Origin: an alpha proteobacterium HIMB114
GTDB lineage: Bacteria > Pseudomonadota > Alphaproteobacteria > Pelagibacterales > Pelagibacteraceae
DNA: 64,000 nucleotides
Assembly: GCA_000163555.2 (NCBI GenBank)
Contig: ADAC02000001.1
Location: 1 to 64,000, forward strand
Direction of reading: 5' to 3'
Part shown: piece after piece, positions 11,201 through 46,835 of the stretch
Layout: each line of letters begins with the position of its first letter
Numbering within the stretch: the stretch's first letter is position 1
Position numbers and translations under genes: made by a program
The notes under the pieces: generated by a model
Seen by the model: the letters and a program-made list of their open reading frames with translations, nothing else
Told to the model about the DNA's origin: nothing
Database searches by the model: none

Positions 11201-11745
11201 TTAATTTTCAGTCTGTATTTCGCTAAAATTTTTAAATTCTTATCGGTCAAAACCATTTCACCTTCACCAGCTCCATAATCTAAATGCTCTCCAACGATTA
11301 CATAATGAGCGCAAAGTAATAAGTTTCCATCACCATTCCAATTCTTAATGTATTTTCTTAACTGCCTTCTTTGTTTTGCTGTGTTATGAGAAAATTGTGA
11401 GCTAAATGTTGAGTTTAACGCTGAGAAAGTTTTAAACTCTCCGAAGAATTGACAGGTTTCCATTGCTCTAAACCACTGTGAACTTAATGCATGTTTAATG
11501 TTAACTTTATTTTTTTTAAAAAGCTTTGAGTAAGCTTTTCCCTGTTTAATTCCAAATTTACCTAAATTTCTTTGAGTGCCACGAACTCTAACATCAAAGT
11601 TATCAGGATCTCCACCACCCGGAGCTGAAAAATGTCTTAACCATAAGATTTTGTCATTTCCTTTTAACAAGTCAAAAAACTTTTGTTCTTCATTAGCGTT
11701 TGAACTTGTACAAAGTATTAAAAATAAAACTAAAAACTTTTTCAT
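11194..11745 (-). CDS. exported histidine-phosphatase-family protein
   Basis: A signal peptide (about residues 1-18, ending SNA) precedes a phosphoglycerate-mutase-like fold. The N-terminal LRH motif (instead of RHG) supplies the phospho-acceptor histidine, SSQWFRAMETC matches the conserved arginine segment, and LLCAHYVIVGE holds the second histidine. The substrate in the periplasm is unknown. The start overlaps the end of folC by 4 bases (ATGA), so it is the last gene of the minus-strand unit before the terminator. Confidence 0.78.
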   Translation of the reverse strand: MKKFLVLFLILCTSSNANEEQKFFDLLKGNDKILWLRHFSAPGGGDPDNFDVRVRGTQRNLGKFGIKQGKAYSKLFKKNKVNIKHALSSQWFRAMETCQFFGEFKTFSALNSTFSSQFSHNTAKQRRQLRKYIKNWNGDGNLLLCAHYVIVGEHLDYGAGEGEMVLTDKNLKILAKYRLKIKN

Positions 11746-13031
11746 ATATTTTGCTCTAATACCTTACCTGCAGAGTAAAGTGAACCACAAACAACAATGA
11801 TGGCATTAGGATCTTGTATAGCAAGTTGAGCAATTGCTTCAGTGGCTGAATTATTTGGATTTGCATGAATACCCAGCTCTTTTGCTTGAGCGATAATATC
11901 TTTAGTTTCATAAAAATTTTCTCTAAGTTTAAAACATTTAATCTCTGTTACTAGTGAACTAAAGCTTGAGAGATAAGCTTTTAAATCTTTGGAAGTGAGC
12001 ATTGAAAAGACAAGGTAGATTGAGCGTTTGCCTTTAATTTTTTCTAAGTATTCTGCTAATGATTTTCCAGCTTGTTCATTATGACCACCATCAACGATTA
12101 AAGTATTTGTTTCTTCATGAATATATGAAAGTAGTTTGCCCTTAGTGATATGTTGAATTCTTCCTTCAACTTTGGTGTTTTTTATACCTTCTGAAATTTT
12201 TTTATTATCAAGTTTTAAACCAATGGATTTTAAAGCTTTTAGTGCAACAGCTGCATTTTGGATTTGAAAAGAACCTTTCATATTTGGCATATCAAGGTCA
12301 ATTAAACCATCATCATCTTGATAGATCATTCTGTTATTTTCTACACTGACATTGAAATCTTCAGAAAAAATATATTTTTTTATTTTTTTTCTTTTTAATT
12401 CTTCATCAACGTAACCTAGAACTTCGCTACTTTGTTTTGCAATAATAACATTAGAATTATCTTTAATTATTCCGCATTTATTATGCGTGATTTCTTTAAG
12501 CGTATCTCCTAAAAAATCTTTATGATCCATACTAATAGGAGTTAGCACTTGTGCTTTCAGATCTTGGTAATCAACATTAGTACTATCATATTTTCCACCA
12601 AGACCTGTCTCCATAATATTAAAATCGCAGTTTGCTTCTTCAAATGCTTTAAATGCAATACAAGTTATATATTCAAAAAAAGTAATATCTTGATTGTTAT
12701 TTGCTTTATCAACTTCTATGACGTAGTTAATAAATTTTTCTTCATCTAGTGGTTCACCATTAATCAAAAATCTTGTTAAAAAATTATAAAGAAAAGGTGA
12801 TTGGAATAACGCAACACTATAACCATGAGCTTGTAAAATTTCTTTTAAATAAAAAGCCGTTCCACCTTTGCCATTGGTTCCAGTTACAGTAATTACATTC
12901 TTTAGTTTTTTGTGAGGGTTACCAACATCATTTGCAAGCCTTAAAACACGATCAAGCTTAAGTTCAATCTTATCAGGATTAAGCTCATAAAGTTTGTTTA
13001 AAATAAATTGTAATTTTTTGGAGTGAGACAC
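11742..13031 (-). CDS. folC: folylpolyglutamate/dihydrofolate synthase
   Basis: A Mur-ligase-type ATP site is present as VTGTNGKGGT (the usual GKGS/T has a glycine at the serine position). Downstream are ETGLGGKYDSTN, the acidic/histidine segment PISMDHKDFLG and the C-terminal ligase domain starting near VDGGHNEQAG. The length (429) is normal. FolC adds glutamate to dihydropteroate and to reduced folates. It follows accD by 4 bases, as in most alphaproteobacteria. Confidence 0.92.
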   Translation of the reverse strand: MSHSKKLQFILNKLYELNPDKIELKLDRVLRLANDVGNPHKKLKNVITVTGTNGKGGTAFYLKEILQAHGYSVALFQSPFLYNFLTRFLINGEPLDEEKFINYVIEVDKANNNQDITFFEYITCIAFKAFEEANCDFNIMETGLGGKYDSTNVDYQDLKAQVLTPISMDHKDFLGDTLKEITHNKCGIIKDNSNVIIAKQSSEVLGYVDEELKRKKIKKYIFSEDFNVSVENNRMIYQDDDGLIDLDMPNMKGSFQIQNAAVALKALKSIGLKLDNKKISEGIKNTKVEGRIQHITKGKLLSYIHEETNTLIVDGGHNEQAGKSLAEYLEKIKGKRSIYLVFSMLTSKDLKAYLSSFSSLVTEIKCFKLRENFYETKDIIAQAKELGIHANPNNSATEAIAQLAIQDPNAIIVVCGSLYSAGKVLEQNI

Positions 13032-13035
13032 TGCA

Positions 13036-13974
13036 CTACTGATTTACAGCTTGTGCTTCTTCCGAACCAGAGAGAGTAGATTGCTGTACATGTTCTTTTT
13101 TAAGAAGAATAGAAACTAAATTTGAAATAACATTTTTTTGATCTTTTCTATGCGTAATCATATCAATTGCCCCAGTTGTAATCACATGTGATGCAGATTG
13201 AAAGTCTTCTGGTAAAGGTTCAGAAATTGTTCCTTGAACAACACGTTTTCCAGCAAATCCCCAGATTGTCTTTTTACCTGGCTCCATAATATGAAAATCA
13301 CCTAGGGAACCAAAACTTGCACTTACACCACCGATATTCACATTAGCTACAACAAAATAAGGAATTTTATTTTCTTTTAACATTTGAACCCCAAGAATTG
13401 TTTTTGGCATTTGATAAAGTGCAAATAAGTTTTCTTGAAGAGCCGCTCCTCCTGTTGTGATAAATACTGTGAGTGCTGATACTTTGTTTTTCACTGCATA
13501 TTCACAAGCTTGGTAAAAGTTTTGACCAGACTGCATGCTTAATGTTCCACCATTAAAATTGAAATCAAATGATGAACAAATCATATCTAATCCATTTACT
13601 TTTCCGTGAGCTGACACAAGAGATGCAATTTGTTTAGTTTTCTTTTTAGCAGATTTAAGTTGGTCTTTATAGGCTTTAAGTTCAGTTTTAAATTTATTAG
13701 GATCTTCTGCTAGTCTTTTTGTATCTATCATTTCATAAGAAGCATTATCAAAAAATATTTTAAATCTCTCATCTGCGCTTATTCTAAAATGATAATCGCA
13801 CTGGGTACAAACGTGCATATTTTTTTTAAGCTCTTTTCCTAAAAACATTTTTTTACATTCAGGACAAGAACTCCATAGATCGGCGTTTTCGATTGTTTTT
13901 TTCTTAAATGAATCTGATAATTTTGCACCAGCAGCTTTTGCTTTTGATAAAATTTTATCTAACCAGTTAGTCAT
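13036..13974 (-). CDS. accD: acetyl-CoA carboxylase carboxyltransferase beta subunit
   Basis: A four-cysteine zinc finger lies at about residues 37-59 (CPECKKM... CTQCDYH) in front of a crotonase-like carboxyltransferase domain with the oxyanion-hole region TTGGAALQENLFALYQM and GGVSASFGSLGDF. With AccA it transfers the carboxyl group from biotin to acetyl-CoA in fatty acid synthesis. The length (312) fits, with a short polar C-terminal tail. It follows trpA by 71 bases, which could hold its own promoter. Confidence 0.95.
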   Translation of the reverse strand: MTNWLDKILSKAKAAGAKLSDSFKKKTIENADLWSSCPECKKMFLGKELKKNMHVCTQCDYHFRISADERFKIFFDNASYEMIDTKRLAEDPNKFKTELKAYKDQLKSAKKKTKQIASLVSAHGKVNGLDMICSSFDFNFNGGTLSMQSGQNFYQACEYAVKNKVSALTVFITTGGAALQENLFALYQMPKTILGVQMLKENKIPYFVVANVNIGGVSASFGSLGDFHIMEPGKKTIWGFAGKRVVQGTISEPLPEDFQSASHVITTGAIDMITHRKDQKNVISNLVSILLKKEHVQQSTLSGSEEAQAVNQ

Positions 13975-14045
13975 AATTTAAGTTGTTTTAGCATAAACTT
14001 TAAAACTTTGGCTACAATGTGATTGTTGTAAAAATGTTGATTTTC

Positions 14046-14843
14046 TTATGCTATTTTAGACTTTAATTTCATTACCATTTTTTTGGCAGCAATTGCTGGT
14101 TTTTTTCTACGATTAACCGAATCTGTAATTGATTTACAAAGTGCACTTCCAACAACAAGTCCATCTGCTTTTTTAAGAGATGCGATGGTTTTTTCTGTGA
14201 TACCAAAACCTATGACAACATTTTTGTTTTTATTAAGCTTTTTGATTTTTTGATAATTTTGAATAATTTTCTTAGGAGCAACTTTCAACTTTCCCCCTGT
14301 AGTAGACAACATACTGATGTAGTAGACCATGTCATGAGAGTCTCTAACGATTTTTTTTAATCTCTCATTTGAAGTTGTTGGTGCAACTAGCTGAATAAAA
14401 TTAATTGATTTTTTTTTGCACTTTGCAGCAAAATTTTTATTTTCTGGCCAAGGAAGATCCACAACGATCAAGCCATCAACTTTATTTTTTTTACACTGAT
14501 TAATAAAGTTTTGTTCGCCAAATTGTTTGATTGTATTAAAGTAACCCATCAAAATGATCGGTTTTGCAAATTTGAATTTTTTATACTGATTTGTAATTTT
14601 AAAAATATCTTTAATTTTAATTCCATTTTTTAAAGCACGGTGCGAGCAGTTTTGTATCTGACCACCATCTGCAACTGGAGTATTATGAGGCATACCCATT
14701 TCACAAATATCTACATATGGCGAGATAGATTTTAAAATTTCCAATGAATTTTTATGAGTATTATCACCCGCAACAGTAAAAGTTAAAAGAGCAGGGCGCT
14801 TTTCTTTTTTGCAAATTTGAAATGCTTTTTTAATAAGACTCAT
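14046..14843 (-). CDS. trpA: tryptophan synthase alpha subunit, divergent
   Basis: This is a TIM-barrel protein of normal length (265). The catalytic Glu48 (DICEMG) and Asp59 (PVADG) that cleave indole-3-glycerol phosphate are kept, as are GFGI and VVGSAL of the phosphate site. However, loop 2 reads MPHNTP instead of the near-universal P-F-S/T-D-P, so the Asp known to contact TrpB is a threonine. Loop 6 reads STTGGKL rather than the usual GVTG form. It follows trpB by one base. Its position between trpB and accD is the standard alphaproteobacterial one, so it is the native gene, but unusually diverged. Confidence 0.85.
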   Translation of the reverse strand: MSLIKKAFQICKKEKRPALLTFTVAGDNTHKNSLEILKSISPYVDICEMGMPHNTPVADGGQIQNCSHRALKNGIKIKDIFKITNQYKKFKFAKPIILMGYFNTIKQFGEQNFINQCKKNKVDGLIVVDLPWPENKNFAAKCKKKSINFIQLVAPTTSNERLKKIVRDSHDMVYYISMLSTTGGKLKVAPKKIIQNYQKIKKLNKNKNVVIGFGITEKTIASLKKADGLVVGSALCKSITDSVNRRKKPAIAAKKMVMKLKSKIA

Positions 14844-14844
14844 A

Positions 14845-16077
14845 TTAGATTTTTTTTCCTAATCTTTTCTTTAAAATATCTCTATCCTTTTTGGCATCAC
14901 CACAACTATTAACAATGATCACAGTATCTTTACTTAACTTCGGTGCAATTTTAATTGCTTCTGCGAATGCATGCGAAGGCTCGAGAGAAGGAGAAATATT
15001 TTCAAATTTAGTCACGAGTTGATGAGCGTGCAATGCTTCTTCATCAGTAGCACTTGTGTATCTTGCTCTTTTTGTATCTTTTAAAAAACAATGAACTGGC
15101 GAAATACCGGGGTAATCTAAGCCAGCGCTTATACTTGCAGTATTACTAATTTGACCCTCTTTATCTTGAATCACATATTGAGCTGCACCATGAAGTATTC
15201 CAACTTTTGCATTCGTACTCAGGGGTGCTGCATGAAGTTTACTATTCTTGGGACCACCTGCTTCAACTCCAATCATTTCAACTTGATTTTTGTTATAATC
15301 CATAAATGAATTCCAAAAACCTAAAGCAGAACTTCCTCCACCAACACAATTGATAAGCTTCATTTTTTTAGGAATTTTTCCAAACTCTTGTTTTACTTGA
15401 ACAATAAGCTCTCTTGAAATTTGCGCAGTGCTCCATGCACAAATTTTAATAAAAATATTTGGACCAACAGTCGATCCAACGCACATATGAGTAGTATCAC
15501 AATTGGACACCCAATATCTCATACATTCACTTACAGCGTCTACTAATGTTTTACTTCCTGTGTGAACTGGAACAATTTCTGCACCATTTTTTTTCATCGC
15601 ATCACAGTTTGGTTTTTGACGCTCAATATCTTTAGCACCCATAAATATTTTACATCTAAGGCCAAATTTTTTAGCCGCCATAGATAACATTTTTCCAGCA
15701 TAACCAGCGCCTGTATCGCCAACGATATATTTTTTACCTGCTTTTTTGCAAATTAATGCATGTACTGTAGCATTGTAAATTTTATGAGCCCCACCATTTG
15801 CTTCTGCTACAACTTTTGCCCAAATTTGAGCACCTCCTAAATGATTAGTTAGATTATTAAGTTTTATAAAAGGAGTAGGAGCTCCAACATAATTTTTAAA
15901 ATAATAGTCTCTTTGCTTTAAAAATTCTTTATTTTTTCTAAGTTTTTCAAATAGTATTGTTAAATCTTCTACAGGCTTTTTGAGCGTCTCTGGAATAAAG
16001 TTTCCACCAAATTTTCCACCATACATATAATTTTTGTCATGTTGGTCTATGACTGGAATACCTTTTCTAATTTTCAT
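14845..16077 (-). CDS. trpB: tryptophan synthase beta subunit, strongly divergent
   Basis: This is a fold-type II PLP enzyme of normal length (410). It keeps the Schiff-base Lys99 (GGAHK), the phosphate loop CVGGGSSALG, Asp321 (SAGLDYPG) and Glu366. The usual K-R-E-D-L-N-H-T-G stretch before the lysine is replaced by KVVAEANGG. The catalytic Glu109 equivalent is Asp121, Gln114 and His115 equivalents are Tyr126 and Ala127, and the Ser377 equivalent is Cys392. The lysine that pairs with TrpA (Lys167) is Val179. It overlaps trpF by 11 bases. It may be a real but altered tryptophan synthase, or a repurposed one. Confidence 0.82.
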   Translation of the reverse strand: MKIRKGIPVIDQHDKNYMYGGKFGGNFIPETLKKPVEDLTILFEKLRKNKEFLKQRDYYFKNYVGAPTPFIKLNNLTNHLGGAQIWAKVVAEANGGAHKIYNATVHALICKKAGKKYIVGDTGAGYAGKMLSMAAKKFGLRCKIFMGAKDIERQKPNCDAMKKNGAEIVPVHTGSKTLVDAVSECMRYWVSNCDTTHMCVGSTVGPNIFIKICAWSTAQISRELIVQVKQEFGKIPKKMKLINCVGGGSSALGFWNSFMDYNKNQVEMIGVEAGGPKNSKLHAAPLSTNAKVGILHGAAQYVIQDKEGQISNTASISAGLDYPGISPVHCFLKDTKRARYTSATDEEALHAHQLVTKFENISPSLEPSHAFAEAIKIAPKLSKDTVIIVNSCGDAKKDRDILKKRLGKKI

Positions 16078-16681
16078 TTTTTTTTAATTTATTGAAAAAT
16101 TGTTTAATTTTTTCTGGGTCTTTTATACCCTTTTTTGTTTCTAGACCAGAATTTACATCAATCTTATCAGTATAGAGCAGAGCTGTTTCAATATTATTTA
16201 TATCTATTTTTCCTGCTATAAAAAAATTTCTATTTTCTAAATCTTTGAGCATTTCAAAATCAAACGCTTCGCCACTTTGACCCATGCTTGGCGTATCATA
16301 GAGAAAAAAATCAGCAGATATAAATTGTTTATGTGTTTGAAGGTCTTCTTTATTGTTTACTTTGATTACTTTGATTACCTCAAGATCTGTTTCTTTTTTT
16401 ATTTGTTGAATAAATTCTTCAGTTTCATCTCCATGTAACTGAATAACATTACAGTAGTTTGAAATTTCTTTTACTTGTTTTATAAATGGATTTACCATTA
16501 CAGCTACTTTTTTAATATTGTCCGGAATATTTTTTGTTAATGATTTTAGTTGTTCAATTGAAATTGACCTTGGGCTTTTAGGATAGTTGATAATAAATCC
16601 CAATAAGCCTGCTCCTTGTTCAATACATAGTTTTATGATTTCTCGATCTATTTGACCACAGACCTTTACAGTTAGTTTCAT
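16067..16681 (-). CDS. trpF: phosphoribosylanthranilate isomerase, divergent
   Basis: This is a TIM-barrel protein of 204 residues with the catalytic Cys8 (KVCG), the SPR motif at 36-38, QLHGDE and the catalytic Asp129 (LYDT). Two glycine motifs that hold the substrate phosphates are changed: GGTG reads GQSG and the usual AGGL reads AGKI. TrpF isomerises phosphoribosylanthranilate in tryptophan synthesis. It overlaps pyrF by 4 bases and trpB by 11. All three trp genes here are unusually diverged, while the neighbouring pyrF and accD look normal. Confidence 0.82.
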   Translation of the reverse strand: MKLTVKVCGQIDREIIKLCIEQGAGLLGFIINYPKSPRSISIEQLKSLTKNIPDNIKKVAVMVNPFIKQVKEISNYCNVIQLHGDETEEFIQQIKKETDLEVIKVIKVNNKEDLQTHKQFISADFFLYDTPSMGQSGEAFDFEMLKDLENRNFFIAGKIDINNIETALLYTDKIDVNSGLETKKGIKDPEKIKQFFNKLKKNEN

Positions 16682-17364
16682 GATTCTAAATGTTGAAAAA
16701 GTCTTTTAAAATTATTTTTAATATTACCTGCAATTAAAGACCGACCCATTACAATACCGATAGCACCATTATCAAAAGCAAATTTTGGGGTAGCAATTCG
16801 TTTTTGATCACCAGATTGATCGCCAGGAAGTCTTATTCCAGGAGTTATCGATGGCAAATTAGAAAGTTTTTTTATTTGTTTTGCTTCATGCGGACTACAA
16901 ATCATAGCATAGGCACCTGCTTTTTTTGCAAGTTTACTAAGTTGAATAACAAGTTTATCTAATTTTTTAGTATGACCAATTTCAGATAGGTTTTTTTTAT
17001 TCATACTAGTAAGCACTGACACTGCTAGAAGTTTTGTTTTGCCAGAATATTTTTTTGCTAATTTTATAGCATCATAACCTGCACTTGTATGAATAGTGAT
17101 GTAATCAGCTTTTAAATCTCTTAAAGATATTACTCCATTTTTAACGGTATTGGGAACATCATTAAGTTTTAAATCTATGAATTTTTTGTATCCTTTTAAT
17201 GATTTAATAAAATTTCTTCCCTTATCAGAATAAAGAATTTGATAACCTGCTTTAATACCAATCTCATATTTTTTCGATCTAATTTTTGGAACTGATTTAA
17301 GAATTGCTTTAGCTTTTGATACTGAGCAATCAAGGGCAATAAAAATTATTTTTTTATTCTTCAA
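16678..17364 (-). CDS. pyrF: orotidine 5'-phosphate decarboxylase
   Basis: The TIM-barrel enzyme of de novo pyrimidine synthesis converts OMP to UMP. The catalytic D-x-K-x-x-D array is present as DLKLNDVPNTV, and the phosphate site as TPGIR and VMGRSL. The length of 228 is typical. The gene lies in an overlapping chain with ihfB (11 bases) and trpF (4 bases), so translation is probably coupled along the chain. Confidence 0.93.
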   Translation of the reverse strand: MKNKKIIFIALDCSVSKAKAILKSVPKIRSKKYEIGIKAGYQILYSDKGRNFIKSLKGYKKFIDLKLNDVPNTVKNGVISLRDLKADYITIHTSAGYDAIKLAKKYSGKTKLLAVSVLTSMNKKNLSEIGHTKKLDKLVIQLSKLAKKAGAYAMICSPHEAKQIKKLSNLPSITPGIRLPGDQSGDQKRIATPKFAFDNGAIGIVMGRSLIAGNIKNNFKRLFQHLES

Positions 17365-17665
17365 TTTTTTTGTCCTTATTAATTCTATAATTTAATAATT
17401 TAGAACTTTTCCATTTTACTTTATTTTTTTCTTCAATTTGTATCGTTTCACCAGTCTTTGGATTTCTTGCATTTCGCGCTGGCATTTTTTTGACTTTGAA
17501 TGTACCAAGTCCTCTTATTTCTATATTTCTTCCCTCTGAAAGAGCATTACTTAAATATTTAAAAATAGATTCAATAATGTGTTCAACGTTATTATTTGGG
17601 ATTTTTTGAAAATGTCCTTGAAGATCTTTTACAATATCTGATTTTACAAACGTTTTTTTAGACAT
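17354..17665 (-). CDS. ihfB: integration host factor beta subunit
   Basis: This is a small DNA-bending protein of the HU/IHF family (103 residues) with the conserved arm GRNIEIRGLGTF followed by KKMPARNARNPKTGE, the proline-containing hairpin that intercalates DNA. IHF acts in recombination, replication and transcription. It lies between rpsA and pyrF, the usual alphaproteobacterial position. The C terminus overlaps pyrF by 11 bases. Confidence 0.93.
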   Translation of the reverse strand: MSKKTFVKSDIVKDLQGHFQKIPNNNVEHIIESIFKYLSNALSEGRNIEIRGLGTFKVKKMPARNARNPKTGETIQIEEKNKVKWKSSKLLNYRINKDKKIEE

Positions 17666-17717: not shown

Positions 17718-19430
17718 TTAATCTTTTTTCTGATCTTTTTTCTCTAAAGCTTCGCCTAAAATTCCAGCTAATGATTGACCAGAACTTGTAGAACCGTACT
17801 TTTCAATTGCCTCATCGGCTTGTTGTTGCTCTAGTTTTTTTACAGATAATTTTACTCTTCTTTTTTCAGCATCTAACTCTAGGATTGCTGCATCAATTGA
17901 GTCACCTGATGAAAAACGATTTGGTCTTTGATCTGATTTTTCTAATGCAAGCTCAGATTTTCTAATAATTGTCTGATATCTTTCAGGTCCAACATCAACT
18001 TTTAAACCATTATCTTGAACTTCTACAACTCTTGTTGAAACAATATCACCAATTTTTTTGTCGTCAAAAAATGAGAAAGGATCTTTTTTAAGAGCTCGAA
18101 TTGAGCCATTCACTTTATCATCTTTAATATCAATTATTTTTAATTCTACTTCATCACCTTTATTAAAGTTATCTAAAGCCTTGGAACTCTCGGCATAATC
18201 TAATTGTTTATAATGAACAAAGATATCAATATCATTGTCACCTGTATTACAGAAAATACCAAAATCTTTTTTTGTTACTACTTTTGTTTTAACAGTAGTT
18301 CCAATAGGATATTTTTTAATAAATTCATCTACTGGATTAGGTAAACAATCTTTGTAACTTAAAGCAATTTTTCTCTTTTCAGTATCAACTTCTTTTAATT
18401 TCACTTTAACAGTATCACCAATTTTGAATGCAGATTTAGGATTAACATTTTTTTGCATATGTTTAATTTCACTAGTATGAATTAAACCAACAATACCCTC
18501 TTGCATTTCTGCAAATGCACCAAAATCAGTTAATTTTACAATTTTAACTTCATATTCATTACCAATAGAAAATTTATCTTTAATCGTTTCAAACGGATCT
18601 GGAAGCATAGCTTTTACAGATAAACTCATTCTCATATTTTCATTATCAATTTCCAAAACTTTAACTTTAATTTTCTCTCCAACTGTAAACATATCGTTCA
18701 GGTTAGAAATTTTAAGATGAGAAACTTCTGAAGAGTGGAGCAAACAATCTAAGCTTTCAATACTCACAAAACATCCATAAGACTGAACTGCCTTAATAGT
18801 GCCTTCTACAACGTCCCCAACTTTGTAATTCTTAATGACCTTTTCTTTATTCTTATTTTTCTCTTGTTCGATGACTTGTCTTCTGCTTGCAATTACATTC
18901 ATTCTTACATTATCAATTTTGATAATTTGAAATTCCATAGGCTTATTCATGTACTCATTCATATTTTTAATTGGTCTATCAGCAACCTGAGAATTTGGAC
19001 AAAATGCAAATACTCCAAAGATTTCTACAACTACTCCACCTTTAACTGTATTTTTTATAATACCGCTTACTTTCTCTTGTTTCTCAAAAGCTTCTTCAAT
19101 TTTTTTCCAAGACTTTGCTCTTCTTGCTTTTTCGATACTTAAAACAATATTACCGTTTCTATCTTCTGTTCTCTCAAGAAAAACTTCTATCTCTTTACCC
19201 TCTTCTAAGCCATCTAGTTCAGCGTGTGGAATTTCATTAATGTCAACTAAACCACTAGATTTAGCCCCTTTAATAAAAACGTGAACATATTTATCATCAA
19301 CTTTTTCCACTGATCCTGTCACAATAGAATTGTCTTTTAAAATGATGTTTTCTAAATTTTCTGTAATTAATTTTGCGAATTCTGATTTATTATCTTGATT
19401 ATATACTTTTAAGTTACTGTCTGTTCCCAC
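17718..19430 (-). CDS. rpsA: 30S ribosomal protein S1
   Basis: The protein has 570 residues with six S1/OB RNA-binding repeats, recognisable by recurring GDVVEGTIKAVQSYGCFVSI-like and GAFAEMQEGIVGLIHTSE-like strands. A polar C-terminal tail follows. S1 binds mRNA on the small ribosomal subunit and assists initiation on weakly matched leaders. Its start overlaps the stop of aroA-cmk by one base (19430), so it is translationally coupled to the fused kinase gene. Confidence 0.96.
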   Translation of the reverse strand: MGTDSNLKVYNQDNKSEFAKLITENLENIILKDNSIVTGSVEKVDDKYVHVFIKGAKSSGLVDINEIPHAELDGLEEGKEIEVFLERTEDRNGNIVLSIEKARRAKSWKKIEEAFEKQEKVSGIIKNTVKGGVVVEIFGVFAFCPNSQVADRPIKNMNEYMNKPMEFQIIKIDNVRMNVIASRRQVIEQEKNKNKEKVIKNYKVGDVVEGTIKAVQSYGCFVSIESLDCLLHSSEVSHLKISNLNDMFTVGEKIKVKVLEIDNENMRMSLSVKAMLPDPFETIKDKFSIGNEYEVKIVKLTDFGAFAEMQEGIVGLIHTSEIKHMQKNVNPKSAFKIGDTVKVKLKEVDTEKRKIALSYKDCLPNPVDEFIKKYPIGTTVKTKVVTKKDFGIFCNTGDNDIDIFVHYKQLDYAESSKALDNFNKGDEVELKIIDIKDDKVNGSIRALKKDPFSFFDDKKIGDIVSTRVVEVQDNGLKVDVGPERYQTIIRKSELALEKSDQRPNRFSSGDSIDAAILELDAEKRRVKLSVKKLEQQQADEAIEKYGSTSSGQSLAGILGEALEKKDQKKD

Positions 19431-21427
19431 TAATATTTTTTTATCTCTCTTTCTATTAATAAAGATATTTTATTAATTGGGCGGCTGATATCATTAAAAG
19501 AATTGTCAATCAAGATACTATCTTTTGTTTTTTTAAGTGGGCTAATAGCCCTTGTAGAATCTGCTAAATCTCTAGTTTTTAGAGCTTTTAAGATCTCTTG
19601 ATAATTGAAATTTTTCTCTTGTTTGTTATTTTTTAACTCTAAATATCTTCGTTTTGCTCTAACTTTAACATCACAATCGATATAAAGTTTAATATCAGAA
19701 AAATTATTTGGTATCACAGTTGATGTTATGTCTCTACCACCAACAAACACAATTTGTTGAGGGCAATTAAAAATAAGATCTCTTTGAACTGGTAACAGTT
19801 GTTGGCGGATAATTTTAATTTTAGCTATTTCAGATACTTTGTTTGATACAGCAATAGAGTGAAGTTTAGGATTTTGTAATTTTGAAATACTAATTTTTTT
19901 TAAATGTTTGACTAAATAACTAGCATCAATTTTTTTTTTCTTACTTTGTAAATGAACTAAAGTTAAGTAGCGATATAACAAACCACTATCTAAAGATGTT
20001 GCTCTTTTTGATCCAAATTTTTTAACTAATTTTTTTAATATTGATGTTTTTCCACAAGCTACTGGTCCATCTGCGGCGACAAGAATTTTCTTACTTTTAT
20101 TATATTTTAAATCATTAATAGTTTTTAAAAAATTTGGAAAACTTACACTTACCGAGTCAAAGTCATTAATCTGTATTTTTTTTCTTGAGACTGCAGCTAA
20201 ACAGAAGAAAGCCATGCATATTCGGTGGTCTTTAGAATAATTTTTGATAATTGGAACTTCACTAGAGTAGAATCTGTTATTGATACCATTAATTATTAAG
20301 TTGTCTTTTACTCTAATAACATTAGCACCACATAATATTAAGTTTTCATACATAACACGGAGTCGATCCGACTCTTTAAACTTTAGTTCTGTAAGATTAT
20401 TAAAAATACTCTTTGGCTTACAAAATAATGTAACTATCAATAAAATTGGAATTTCATCAATAATACTTGCAACTTCATTTGGTTTAATTGTGATGCCTTT
20501 AAGTTTTGGAGAATATGAGGCTGTTATGTCGCCAACTGGTTCACCAAAATAGCTTTTTTTATTTGAAAATATTATTTTTGCGCCCATTTTTTTTAAGATC
20601 TTTATAAATCCTATTCGATATGGATTGAGACAAACATTTTTAATTTTAATTTCAGAGCCTTTAGTTAAAATTGCGATAGCAATTAAAAAAGCACTTGATG
20701 ATGGGTCAGACGGAATATTATAGTTTTGAAGAGGTTTTAAAAAACGTCTTCCTTGAACTTTAATGATCTGTTTACTTTTTTTATTTTGAACTTTAATTGG
20801 GTAGTCAAGGTACTTTAAAACTCTTGTAGTATGATCTCTCACATTATTAGGAGCCTCTATTATGGTTTCGCCGTAACTTATCATTCCAGCAATAGTAGCA
20901 GCACTAACCATTTGAGCTGAGGATTTTTCAATTTTTACGTTTGATTGAATACAGTTTTCATGACCTTTAATTTTTATTGGCAAATATTGACTATTTGTAG
21001 GTTTTAGGTTCATTAAAAACTGTTTTAAAAATTCTAATCGGTAGGGTCTTTTACTTAAACTTTTATCACCTGTAATTTTTGCGTTAACCTTTGAGCCTGC
21101 TATTAAAGGCGTTAATAATCTTAATGTAGTTCCACTATTATTAAATGAAATTTTAAGTGTTCTTTTGCTATAATAACCAATCCCCAAACCATAAACTGTA
21201 TATAAATCTTTATTTCTTATTACTTTAATTCCAAGAGCTTTAATTGCTTTAATTGCAGTCTCAGCATCTTCACCAGGACTCTTAATTTTAATTTTACTGA
21301 TCCCATAGGCAATACTTGCAAAAATTACACCTCTAATGCTTAGTGATTTATCGCTTGAAAGCTCAACTAATCCTTTAATACTAATATTATTTTCAGGTAT
21401 TAATTGATTTGATTTTTTAATTGCCAT
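19430..21427 (-). CDS. aroA-cmk: fused EPSP synthase and cytidylate kinase
   Basis: The frame is continuous for 665 residues. Residues about 1-440 form EPSP synthase of the shikimate pathway (SSDKSLSIRG near the start, NNSGTTLRLL, SDPSSSAFL, KFKESDRLR). After a linker of about 10 lysine-rich residues, cytidylate kinase begins near residue 446 with the P-loop AADGPVACGKTS. It continues with SLDSGLLYRYL, VGGRDITSTVIPN and the lid region rich in arginine. In most bacteria these are separate, often adjacent, genes. Here the AroA stop is lost. The fusion sits directly before rpsA as cmk usually does. Two independent activities are expected. Confidence 0.92.
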   Translation of the reverse strand: MAIKKSNQLIPENNISIKGLVELSSDKSLSIRGVIFASIAYGISKIKIKSPGEDAETAIKAIKALGIKVIRNKDLYTVYGLGIGYYSKRTLKISFNNSGTTLRLLTPLIAGSKVNAKITGDKSLSKRPYRLEFLKQFLMNLKPTNSQYLPIKIKGHENCIQSNVKIEKSSAQMVSAATIAGMISYGETIIEAPNNVRDHTTRVLKYLDYPIKVQNKKSKQIIKVQGRRFLKPLQNYNIPSDPSSSAFLIAIAILTKGSEIKIKNVCLNPYRIGFIKILKKMGAKIIFSNKKSYFGEPVGDITASYSPKLKGITIKPNEVASIIDEIPILLIVTLFCKPKSIFNNLTELKFKESDRLRVMYENLILCGANVIRVKDNLIINGINNRFYSSEVPIIKNYSKDHRICMAFFCLAAVSRKKIQINDFDSVSVSFPNFLKTINDLKYNKSKKILVAADGPVACGKTSILKKLVKKFGSKRATSLDSGLLYRYLTLVHLQSKKKKIDASYLVKHLKKISISKLQNPKLHSIAVSNKVSEIAKIKIIRQQLLPVQRDLIFNCPQQIVFVGGRDITSTVIPNNFSDIKLYIDCDVKVRAKRRYLELKNNKQEKNFNYQEILKALKTRDLADSTRAISPLKKTKDSILIDNSFNDISRPINKISLLIEREIKKY

Positions 21428-43104: not shown

Positions 43105-44012
43105 TTTAAATATTTCAAAATTTTTGAATAAACATATTCAGGAGTAAAATCTTTCATGGCATTTGAGTTATGAGAAATAAACTGGTATCCCTCTGGAATA
43201 ATAGGGGTAATATTATCTGAGTATTCTACATAATTAGTTGGTGTATCGCCAAATAAACCAAATGTCTTCACATTGAGTGCAGAACTTAAATGCATAAAAC
43301 CTGAATCTGTACCCACATAAATTTTCGAATTTTTAATATAACTGAATGTTTCATAAACACTTGAATTACATAAGGAAGTAATTTTTATTGAAGAAAAATT
43401 ATTTATGATATCTTCAGCTTGAGATTTTTCATTCGGCCCACCTAATATAATTATTTTATATCTTTTATGAATATTTATTTTTTTAATTAAATTTATAAAA
43501 TTATCAGTTGACCATTTTCTACTTAGTCCAGAGGAACCAATTCCAATTAAAATTTTATCTCCTTCAATTATTTTGCCGTTATAATTCAGAACACTAGTTG
43601 TGTTATAATTTTCAATGTTCAACCAGTCGCACGTACTTTTAATCATTCTCATGGATATACTTTCATTTTTTTTTAAAAAACCGTAGAAGTATACTTCTTT
43701 TATAGATAGTATTTTTGAAATTAAAAAATATTTAAAACCATAATGAAAAATATATGCTTTATCATATTTTTCTTTTTTCAAAAAAAAAATTAATGAAATA
43801 AAGGAAGGCAGTTTTTTTTTAATTTCTTCAATATAAAGAATTTTATTAATATATTTTTCATCAGATAAAAAATTTTTTGCTTTTGTATTTTTTTTTGTAA
43901 TTAGAGTTATTTTTGAATTAGGGTTCTTTTTTGATATTTCGTAAATAGATGATAAAAATACGCACATATCGCCTATACCAGGGCGCAGTTGATAAATTAT
44001 AATATTATTCAT
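43101..44012 (-). CDS. GT9-family heptosyltransferase-like protein
   Basis: This protein of 303 residues has a GT-B fold: N-terminal [19 protein letters not shown], a middle acceptor part, then a donor-binding domain with [25 protein letters not shown] and [24 protein letters not shown]. The latter patterns are typical of heptosyltransferases and related GT9 enzymes that build the lipopolysaccharide inner core. It marks the left edge of the AT-rich surface-polysaccharide island. Confidence 0.85.
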
Positions 44013-44030
44013 TATTTTTTAATTTAAAAC

Positions 44031-44045
44031 TGTATAATTTATACA
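44031..44045. promoter_or_regulatory. palindromic bidirectional -10 candidate
   Basis: TGTATAA-T-TTATACA is a 15-base perfect inverted repeat in the spacer between divergent GT9 (start 44012) and Gfo/Idh (start 44099) genes. It gives TATAAT on the plus strand and TATAAA on the minus strand. It may be a shared -10 or an operator. In DNA this AT-rich it could also be chance. Confidence 0.3.
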
Positions 44046-44098
44046 TAAAGTTTTTTGAATAGTATTACATATATTATATTTTTTTATTTTTTATTATT

Positions 44099-45097
44099 AT
44101 GAAAATTCTAAAATGGGGATTGATTGGTTATGGAGAAGCAGCAAAGAAATTATTTATAGATCTATCGGTAAGAAAAAATTCAATTATTGAATGTATTGCA
44201 TCAAAATCACAATATGATTTTTTATCAAAAAAATACCCAGACATTAATATTTTCAATTCATATGAAAATCTAATTAAAAAAAATAATTTAGATATTATAT
44301 ATTTATCGTTAATAAATTCTTTGCATTATAAATTTATTAAAAAAATTATTCAGTCAAATCAAAATATTTTAATAGAAAAACCCGCGTGTATAGAATTTTC
44401 ACAATTAGTTGATATTAGAGATCAATTGAATAAAAAAAAAAATTTATACTTTAGAGAGTCAATATTATACTTAAGTCATCCGATAATAATGAATATTTTT
44501 GAAATAATAAAAAATGAAAATATTGGAAATATTGTCGAAATAGAGTCAAATTTTGGTTTTAATTTTAAAAAAAAAAAATTTTTATTTTTTTTAAAAAAAA
44601 ATAATAAAAAGTTATTTTCAAAAATGTTAGGTGGTGGATCTATTTTGAATTTTGGACATTATCCTCTATCAGCTTATAAAATTTTTTGTGAAAAATTTAA
44701 TAAAATTAAAAATATTAAGAAAAATATAAAAATCGGATATCGTGGAGTTGATGAAGACTCAAGATTAGAAATTGATTTTGAAAAGCGAGCTAAATTAAAA
44801 ACAGAGGTATCATTAACTAGAAATTTAAAAAGTTTTTTGAGAATTACAGGAGAATATGGAAATATTTTTATAGAAAATCCTTGGATACCTTTAACAAATT
44901 ATGAAATTCTTTTAGAAATTAATGGAGTAAAAAAAATATTTAAATATCATGAAAAAAAAAGTTTATGGCAACTTAAAATAGATTGTATTGAAAAAGATTT
45001 TAATGAAGGTCTTAAAAAACCTTCAACTATTGGCACAGATATTGAGTCTAGTTTTGAATATATGAAATTAATAAATATATGGAAAAATTCAAATTAG
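44099..45097 (+). CDS. Gfo/Idh/MocA-family oxidoreductase
   Basis: A Rossmann N-terminal domain begins WGLIGYGEAAKKLF; EKP (IEKPACIEF) is the conserved lysine-proline at the end of the nucleotide-binding domain. An alpha/beta domain follows, with the substrate-side motif GGGSILNFGHYPLSAYK. The length is 332 residues. Such enzymes oxidise or reduce sugars and nucleotide sugars, consistent with the island. Codons are extremely A/T-rich, with a 12-A run at 44567-44578. Confidence 0.82.
   Translation: MKILKWGLIGYGEAAKKLFIDLSVRKNSIIECIASKSQYDFLSKKYPDINIFNSYENLIKKNNLDIIYLSLINSLHYKFIKKIIQSNQNILIEKPACIEFSQLVDIRDQLNKKKNLYFRESILYLSHPIIMNIFEIIKNENIGNIVEIESNFGFNFKKKKFLFFLKKNNKKLFSKMLGGGSILNFGHYPLSAYKIFCEKFNKIKNIKKNIKIGYRGVDEDSRLEIDFEKRAKLKTEVSLTRNLKSFLRITGEYGNIFIENPWIPLTNYEILLEINGVKKIFKYHEKKSLWQLKIDCIEKDFNEGLKKPSTIGTDIESSFEYMKLINIWKNSN
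44567..44578 (+). repeat. A12 homopolymer in Gfo/Idh gene
   Basis: Twelve consecutive A residues encode lysines after FNF in the Gfo/Idh-family gene. A run of this length can cause polymerase slippage and variable protein length. Confidence 0.6.
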
Positions 45098-45104
45098 TAT
45101 AAAA

Positions 45105-45902
45105 ATGAAAAAATTCGATTGTATTACATTTTTTCAAGAAAATTTTATTACTAATATTAGATTTGAAATATTAAAGGATGTTGTAGATTTTTTCGTAGTT
45201 TGTGAAAGTAAATATGATCATAGAGGAAATAAAAAAGAAATAAATTTTCAATTATTAAACTCAGACTTAAAAAAAAAAGTAAGGCATGTTATTTTAGATC
45301 ATCCTTTTCCTGAAGGTTTAAATTTATGGCAGAGGCAAGCATATCAAAGAGAATTTATATTTAATGGAATTAAAGATTGCGAGGAAGATGATTATATAAT
45401 GTTTTCAGATCCTGACGAAATACCAAACCCAGATGTATTGAAGAATTTTATTTTAAAAAAAAAATATGCAATTTTTCATCAAAAATGCTTTAATTATAAA
45501 TTAAACTTATTAAACCCACATGAAACGCCCTGGTCAGGTACAAGGTTAACAAAAAAAAAATATTTGTTGTCATTTGATTTTTTTAGACAAAAAATTTTGG
45601 AAAAAAATATAAATAAATGGTGGAAATTTTCTGTAGAGCGAAGCATTGAGATAGTGAAAGATGGAGGATGGCATTTTAACAACCTTTTTTCACCTAAAAT
45701 GATATCAAAAAAACTCAAAACATTTGCTCATGATGAATTTAGCGGAGAGGAATATAGTGATGAAAAAGTTATTGAGGAAAAGATTCATAAGGGCATCGAT
45801 TTATTTAATAGGGGACAGAAATTAAAAAAAGTAGATATAGACAATACTTATCCAAGATATATTTTAAATAAAATAAAAGAATTTAAAGAATTTATTGTTT
45901 AA
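45105..45902 (+). CDS. GT17-like glycosyltransferase
   Basis: The protein of 265 residues matches the GT17 (beta-1,4-N-acetylglucosaminyltransferase-like) pattern. It opens FDCITFFQENFIT..., then FVVCESKYDHRGNKKEINF, a QRQ motif (NLWQRQAYQRE) and the acidic metal-binding stretch MFSDPDEIPNPD. GGWHFNNLFSPKMI follows in the C-terminal half. In bacteria this family decorates cell-surface glycans. It follows the Gfo/Idh gene by 7 bases. Confidence 0.82.
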   Translation: MKKFDCITFFQENFITNIRFEILKDVVDFFVVCESKYDHRGNKKEINFQLLNSDLKKKVRHVILDHPFPEGLNLWQRQAYQREFIFNGIKDCEEDDYIMFSDPDEIPNPDVLKNFILKKKYAIFHQKCFNYKLNLLNPHETPWSGTRLTKKKYLLSFDFFRQKILEKNINKWWKFSVERSIEIVKDGGWHFNNLFSPKMISKKLKTFAHDEFSGEEYSDEKVIEEKIHKGIDLFNRGQKLKKVDIDNTYPRYILNKIKEFKEFIV

Positions 45903-45905
45903 AAT

Positions 45906-46835
45906 TCATTTATTACTTTTGAGTATATTAAGTATATCTTTTTCAATATTAAATTTAACTTTTATAATTTTTAAGTTTTCATATTTATTAAATATTTGAT
46001 TACTGTAAATTTCATTATTAATCTCGTATTTAATTTTGCAAGTTAATTTTCGGTTTAGATTTTTTAAAAGTTTTAAAATATTGGTATTTTTATAGTTTTT
46101 TAAAACAATATTTTTATTTGCATTACTCTTATTTTTAAGAATTTTTAGTAAAAACTCGCTTACATTATCGGCGTGCACTACGTTTAATTCCAAATTCTTA
46201 TTCTTAAGATAAAATTTATTTTTTTTAAAAAAACAATTTAATAGTGTTGGAAAAATTTTTTTTCTTTTGTCAGATTTAGAAAAGGTTTCATATAGTTTTA
46301 TATTATAAAATTGAACTTCTTTATGTTTAACCTTATAAAACTCTAAAAATTGTTCGTATGCTTTTTTTGAAGCCGCGTAAAGATTTTTAGGTTTATATGA
46401 ATTACTATTAAAAAACTCCTGCATACTTCCTAGGTTTATAATTTTTTTAATTTTAAAGTTCAGATTATTTAAAATAATAGTAGGAAATATAATATTAGAA
46501 TTCATAAATTTAATTAAGTTTTTATCACTATTTTCCTCGCTATAAAAAGTTGCAAAATTAATAAAAAAATTGAATTTTTTATTTTTAATTTTTTTTAGTT
46601 CTTTAAATTCTTTATAAAAAAAAGACTTATAATTTTTGTACTTTTTTTTAATTTTCAATATTTTTTTATTTTTTTTATGATCGTATCTTAAAATGTCTAC
46701 AACTTCGTAGCCATTTTCGAGTGCAGTAATTAAAAAGTTATTTCCTAAAAATCCAGAAGATCCTAAAATTAATATGCTTGATTTTTTTTTATTATTAAAT
46801 TTTTTATTTGAATAATTCTTCGAAGCTTCTTCCAT
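45906..46835 (-). CDS. RfbJ-like nucleotide-sugar SDR
   Basis: An extended short-chain dehydrogenase (309 residues): GSSGFLGNNFLI holds the dinucleotide site, LGSMQEFFNSN the catalytic Ser, and YAASKKAYEQF the Tyr/Lys pair. The pattern SMQEF followed by YAASK resembles CDP-abequose synthase (RfbJ) and related 4-ketosugar reductases more than RmlD. It probably reduces a dTDP-4-keto-6-deoxy sugar made by RmlB/RmlC. Its start lies 32 bases inside rmlC in another frame, with AAGGA just before the ATG. Confidence 0.8.
   Translation of the reverse strand: MEEASKNYSNKKFNNKKKSSILILGSSGFLGNNFLITALENGYEVVDILRYDHKKNKKILKIKKKYKNYKSFFYKEFKELKKIKNKKFNFFINFATFYSEENSDKNLIKFMNSNIIFPTIILNNLNFKIKKIINLGSMQEFFNSNSYKPKNLYAASKKAYEQFLEFYKVKHKEVQFYNIKLYETFSKSDKRKKIFPTLLNCFFKKNKFYLKNKNLELNVVHADNVSEFLLKILKNKSNANKNIVLKNYKNTNILKLLKNLNRKLTCKIKYEINNEIYSNQIFNKYENLKIIKVKFNIEKDILNILKSNK

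Follow-up and report, generated by a model that had tools for sequence, protein, structure and literature searches.

The trpB gene of the alphaproteobacterium HIMB114, located in a window of 64,000 nucleotides (the whole stretch of DNA analysed), very probably encodes a working, remodelled tryptophan synthase β subunit, as judged from its sequence and from culture work on a relative. HIMB114 belongs to SAR11 subclade IIIa (PMC3815206), and its genome comprises 1,237,371 bp in a single contig that is 99.96% complete. The tryptophan pathway is complete (trpE, G, D, C, F, B and A), with trpE-G-D-C clustered about 500 kb from trpFBA. A search of the complete genome for a second canonical trpAB, as the earlier note had proposed, returned one TrpB and one TrpA and no second TrpB. 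The features considered here are listed below; residue equivalences come from an alignment to E. coli TrpB and follow E. coli numbering.

11742..17665, minus strand: folC-accD-trpA-trpB-trpF-pyrF-himD locus, order kept across SAR11, proteins unusually variable
14046..14843, minus strand: trpA, tryptophan synthase α, remodelled partner with Glu49 and Asp60 retained (TIGR00262, 198.1 against a cut-off of 102.35 bits)
14679..14681, minus strand: TrpA T55 at Asp56, the partner position of βLys167 (alignment)
14845..16077, minus strand: trpB, tryptophan synthase β, SAR11 type I, 410 aa (TIGR00263 profile and AlphaFold model)
14902..14904, minus strand: C392 at Ser377, ordinary among alphaproteobacteria (alphaproteobacterial comparison)
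15115..15117, minus strand: D321 at Asp305, retained (alignment)
15541..15543, minus strand: V179 at Lys167, α-β interface (alignment)
15598..15600, minus strand: A160 at Arg148, the hydrogen-bond partner of Gln114 (alignment; role from PMC9512447)
15697..15702, minus strand: Y126 and A127 at Gln114 and His115 (alignment)
15715..15717, minus strand: D121 at the catalytic Glu109 position (alignment)
15781..15783, minus strand: K99, the PLP lysine (E. coli Lys87), retained (alignment)
15790..15816, minus strand: KVVAEANGG, residues 88-96, replacing KRDELNHTG (alignment)
16067..16681, minus strand: trpF, phosphoribosylanthranilate isomerase (PF00697, 120.2 against 22.7 bits)

Active site of HIMB114 TrpB

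The trpB reading frame starts with ATG and encodes 410 aa on the minus strand, the strand being an addition to the earlier note. The protein scores 392.7 bits against TIGR00263, the TrpB1 equivalog, barely above the cut-off of 392.45 bits, and 95.5 bits against TIGR01415 (TrpB2, trpB_rel), for which the cut-off is 518.85 bits. The other models of PLP fold type II, including cysteine synthase and threonine synthase, all score below their cut-offs; the best of these is the threonine synthase model (34.9 against 266 bits). AlphaFold gives a confident TrpB fold (pLDDT 82, pTM 0.86), and the closest structure to the model is P. furiosus TrpB (Z 55.3, rmsd 1.8 Å over 384 residues). This predicted match speaks for the fold, not the function.

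The alignment confirms that Asp121, Tyr126, and Ala127 stand at the positions of Glu109, Gln114, and His115, and that the full-length protein retains the PLP lysine, the phosphate loop, and the equivalents of Asp305 and Arg141. Additionally, Thr110 (T122), Arg141 (R153), and Glu350 (E366) are retained, and K99 and the GGGS phosphate loop occur in every SAR11 TrpB type. Both residues of the Arg141-Asp305 closed-state pair are thus present (R153, D321), as read from the residues themselves. At position 109, Asp121 preserves the carboxylate; because TrpB1 enzymes carry Glu here, we file HIMB114 TrpB as a TrpB1 variant, not as a canonical member. Changes beyond those in the earlier note are Lys167 to Val, Asn236 to Ser, Arg148 to Ala, and Arg379 to Asp. 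In TrpA, Asp56 is replaced by Thr and Arg179 by Met, while Glu49, Thr183, and the phosphate loop are retained; trpB adjoins a trpA with catalytic Glu49 and Asp60, as in TrpB1.

Two observations of the earlier note stand in part. KVVAEANGG does occupy residues 88-96, but K-R-E-D-L-N-H-T-G is not the appropriate reference: most alphaproteobacteria have KRDELNHTG and E. coli has KREDLLHGG, so part of the segment before the PLP lysine varies normally. Similarly, Cys392 is present at Ser377 as described, but it is not unusual. Since Cys is the rule in alphaproteobacteria outside the order (25 of 28), we rejected this change as a SAR11 peculiarity and dropped it. In contrast, Glu, Gln, and His at 109, 114, and 115 are invariant in all 28 of these TrpBs, and Asp, Tyr, and Ala or Asn are fixed at the same positions in type I SAR11.

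Remodelling across SAR11

Each of the 13 type I SAR11 genomes that were scored carries the remodelled active site, HTCC1062-like and HTCC7211-like genomes among them. Among cultured isolates, type I appears in HTCC1062, HTCC7211, IMCC9063, and HIMB114, and type II in HIMB5. A TrpB match was obtained in 39 of the 41 nearest genomes and in 195 of the 198 genomes of the order, a few of them merely at the level of threonine synthase. Ten genomes without a clear match were checked: trpD is present in all ten, and the accD match is also missing in six. In the remaining cases, trpA runs off the contig end (G257), or the locus sits at the end of its contig, close to it, or on a contig of just 3.2 kb. 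On these observations we read the missing matches as assembly gaps, and tryptophan auxotrophy is not supported. One order member (G027) carries near-canonical TrpB and TrpA at the same locus, with 0 of 124 and 0 of 40 invariant columns changed. The most divergent type I relative (L039) has KHEAQCHGDSHK around the PLP lysine and Glu at the Asp60 position of TrpA. Another type I trpB (G202:C1:154948-156174) contains one in-frame TAA, either a sequencing error or a pseudogene.

Several other origins were considered. Contamination or assembly error was rejected since most genomes of the order, as well as single cells, carry the same gene. Among named species genomes, the 80 best loci all belong to SAR11 records or to SAR11-like single cells whose only label is alpha proteobacterium. 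No TrpB above 46% identity was found outside the order in 114 genomes of the class, and the motif GAGY[AN]GKM was found in 0 of 396 other Pseudomonadota genomes, a sample with just two SAR11 genomes; an origin outside SAR11 was therefore rejected within Pseudomonadota. For a phage origin, the patterns used gave no match in viral contigs, and the matches in phage records stay under 60% identity and probably represent DNA of bacteria.

To quantify the extent of change, we used columns invariant in 16 alphaproteobacteria and E. coli and scored seven type I genomes. In TrpB, 46-48 of 124 columns are changed per genome (about 38%), 40 of them in all seven, against a leave-one-out baseline in the panel of at most 5% for alphaproteobacteria and 19% for E. 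coli. TrpA has 11-15 of 40 columns changed (28-38%) and TrpF 2-13 of 27, while TrpD and TrpC have 1-7 of 42 and 1-4 of 41 (2-17%). A second panel without E. coli gives 62-66 of 153 TrpB columns changed in 13 type I genomes. In the TrpB tree, a check the earlier note had called for, the remodelling falls on the stem that leads to type I SAR11. The ratio of stem to crown length is 7.7 for TrpB and 3.9 for TrpA against 0.2-0.3 for TrpC and TrpD; only this contrast is used, because absolute stem lengths vary with sampling (1.15 in a 52-row tree, 3.31 in a smaller E. coli-rooted set). Comparisons within the genus give a dN/dS of 0.013-0.035 in trpB and 0.037-0.063 in trpA. Collectively, these sequence comparisons indicate that among the Trp enzymes compared the remodelling is specific to TrpAB and selected, and that it took place mainly on the SAR11 type I stem, with strong purifying selection since.

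The αAsp56-βLys167 pair forms a direct salt bridge. In simulations, each of the two residues contacts βTyr279 at the indole channel (PMC8187860). In the closed state of the Salmonella enzyme, βGln114 hydrogen-bonds βAsn145 and βArg148, indole N1 is hydrogen-bonded by βGlu109, the indole sub-site is bounded by His115 and Phe306, and a change of Gln114 impairs the β reaction (PMC9512447). In type I, both partners are lost in αAsp56-βLys167 and in βGln114-βArg148. In the 153 TrpA/TrpB pairs that could be read, Lys167 is always accompanied by Asp or Glu at α56 (36 pairs) and an uncharged β167 always by an uncharged α56 (117 pairs). Similarly, Gln114 is found exclusively with Arg or Lys148 (37 pairs) and Tyr114 exclusively with Ala or Ser148 (110 pairs), while Met114 accompanies Phe, Ile, or Arg at 148; these pairs represent many sequences but few evolutionary events. 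Types I and III are without both contacts, whereas type II and the canonical forms retain both. The residue patterns suggest that the two contacts were probably lost independently in types I and III.

TrpAB types at one locus and their explanation

Within genus g4, TrpB is 27-36% and TrpA 25-30% identical between types I, II, and III, against about 75% for TrpC and TrpD. Type II TrpB (L081, from an HIMB5-like genome, L085, and L087) retains Glu109, Gln114, and His115 but has Thr110 replaced by Ser and Asp305 by Gln or Thr; αAsp60 is replaced by Glu, and the α56-β167 charges are retained. Type III TrpB (L088 and L089) has Met114, an ETGASM loop, an N-terminal insertion, Arg141 replaced by Lys, and Lys167 by Leu, with Thr at α56, and scores 323.6 bits against TIGR00263, under the cut-off of 392.45. 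In the TrpB tree, types II and III lie near each other on long branches, and no placement is claimed for them. The trpBA pair of every type lies between pyrF-trpF and accD, and the TrpA type equals the TrpB type in every genome examined.

The pair and its neighbours give discordant identities in both directions. Between HIMB114-like and HTCC1062-like genomes, TrpB is 81% and TrpA 71% identical, whereas HimD, PyrF, TrpF, AccD, and FolC are 33, 48, 31, 38, and 31% identical. Between HTCC1062-like and HIMB5-like genomes, HimD, AccD, and FolC are 66-75%, PyrF 50%, and TrpF 56% identical, whereas TrpB is 38% and TrpA 27%. Because of this discordance, trpBA must have crossed SAR11 subclades without its neighbours, and the identities indicate that it passed between SAR11 lineages as a unit. 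Promiscuous recombination in SAR11 has been published (PMC12374537, PMC7542561). The neighbours, too, show unusual variability and losses of invariant residues, so the locus itself may be part of the cause. From folC to himD, minimum identities within genus g4 are 0.25-0.42, and the unlinked trpEGDC is tight (0.70-0.89). In AccD (window positions 13036-13974), 23 of the 70 columns that do not vary among 14 alphaproteobacteria are lost, which indicates that this carboxyltransferase subunit is remodelled too. Elsewhere in the window, a 665-aa reading frame at 19430-21427 reads as a fusion of EPSP synthase (AroA) and cytidylate kinase, an assignment made by eye, and GC falls to 0.21 at 44001-46000, against about 0.30 in the rest.

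As the sole TrpB of the cell, the HIMB114 enzyme would make tryptophan from serine and indole by the standard PLP β-replacement cycle. Lys99 would form the Schiff base, the Thr122-Gly-Ala loop would hold serine, and indole would attack the aminoacrylate, with Asp121 taking over the role of Glu109. TrpA and TrpB have been remodelled together, the indole sub-site, the Gln114-Arg148 closed-state network, and the αAsp56-βLys167 pair being replaced on both sides; because of these replacements, channelling and allosteric closure probably differ. We infer that Asp121 is the working carboxylate and that allostery is altered. Points against a working enzyme are the invariance of Glu109, Gln114, and His115 in the sampled canonical enzymes, the impaired β reaction when Gln114 is changed in Salmonella, and the marginal TIGR00263 score. 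Tryptophan synthesis in vivo is supported indirectly, by published culture work on a relative, HTCC1062, which is the strongest evidence on function. The HTCC1062-like genome shares the type I active site, and a single trpB is reported for HTCC1062 (PMC2395257). Its medium consists of artificial seawater with glycine, glycine betaine, pyruvate, DMSP, and vitamins, tryptophan being unlisted (PMC5069961), and a similar defined recipe is cited in PMC6589437; HIMB114 itself shows no growth in such defined media (PMC6589437). P. ubique is said to synthesise all 20 amino acids (PMC5764234). Since HTCC1062 with its single trpB grows without listed tryptophan, a working but rewired synthase is favoured, and a new acceptor as the main job is unlikely.

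The latter possibility was raised in the earlier note as a shift to a new acceptor or amino acid. In this reading, the enzyme would chiefly use another nucleophile or form another amino-acid product, and tryptophan would come from uptake. All three indole sub-site residues, Glu109, Gln114, and His115, are indeed replaced, and the removal of His115 could open the acceptor pocket. However, the trp pathway is complete with no other TrpB, the indole-making TrpA keeps its catalytic residues and is co-inherited, and HTCC1062, with the same site, is grown without listed tryptophan. No positive evidence for such a shift emerged, and we regard it as very improbable, although a relaxed choice of acceptor is conceivable. 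Relaxed constraint, in which low tryptophan demand allowed the enzyme to decay and the altered site is a by-product of a fast-evolving AT-rich genome, would fit the loss of invariant residues in other proteins of the locus. It is hard to reconcile with TrpC and TrpD of the same genomes, which do not lose such residues, with the trpB dN/dS of 0.013-0.035, or with active-site residues fixed across the type I clade, and there is little chance that it is correct. The earlier note's wording of a drifted but working tryptophan synthase survives in its second half: the sole TrpB, the full trpEGDC and trpFBA, strong purifying selection, and the HTCC1062 culture argue for a working enzyme. Drift does not describe changes that fell on the type I stem, have since been held fixed, affect both subunits together, and moved between lineages as a pair.

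What maintains the different types is a separate matter. SAR11 TrpAB may exist as several radically different types at one chromosomal position that circulate by recombination under antagonistic or balancing selection, each having taken apart and rebuilt the allosteric coupling differently: type I by Glu109 to Asp with both contacts lost, type II, in an HIMB5-like genome, by βAsp305 to Gln with αAsp60 to Glu, and type III by Arg141 to Lys with both contacts lost. We advance this speculatively and consider it unlikely. A more specific proposal, that TrpAB is the target of some antagonist (antimetabolite, toxin, or phage factor) so that rare types are favoured and unlike types stay in circulation, seems to us decidedly unlikely. 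Such pressure would be consistent with unlike types at one locus in one genus and with the swapping of trpBA across subclades as a unit. However, no antagonist is known, and none was found. Moreover, viral contigs gave no trpB of this type with the patterns used, phage records give no match of at least 60% identity, the variable neighbours point to the locus as a possible cause, and recombination is promiscuous in SAR11 in general.

Comparison with known tryptophan synthases

Tryptophan synthase is the textbook model of channelling and allostery, an enzyme whose catalytic and coupling residues are regarded as invariable. SAR11 cells rank among the most numerous in the ocean, yet they appear to depend on versions of the enzyme that have exchanged these residues jointly with their partners, and on more than one occasion. 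These enzymes are natural, presumably working test cases for which allosteric parts are dispensable, and are useful for TrpB engineering and for studying the swapping of core enzymes as interacting pairs. A search of the available literature for E109D with tryptophan synthase found no report. In 2008, a divergent SAR11-like trpB_1 cluster was noted in the Sargasso Sea metagenome (PMC2395257), very likely the same group as type I SAR11 TrpB; active-site residues, TrpA partner changes, other locus types, and lineage exchange were not found in the consulted part of that account.

With TrpB2 (TIGR01415, trpB_rel), HIMB114 TrpB shares the kinship of PLP fold type II, but it lies far under the cut-off of that family. 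Like TrpB1 (TIGR00263; Salmonella, E. coli, and P. furiosus), it has the TrpB fold, the PLP lysine, the phosphate loop, Arg141, Asp305, Glu350, and an adjacent trpA. Unlike TrpB1, it carries Asp for Glu109, Tyr for Gln114, and Ala for His115, has replacements on either side of two contacts of the closed state or the interface, and differs in about 38% of the columns that are otherwise invariant.
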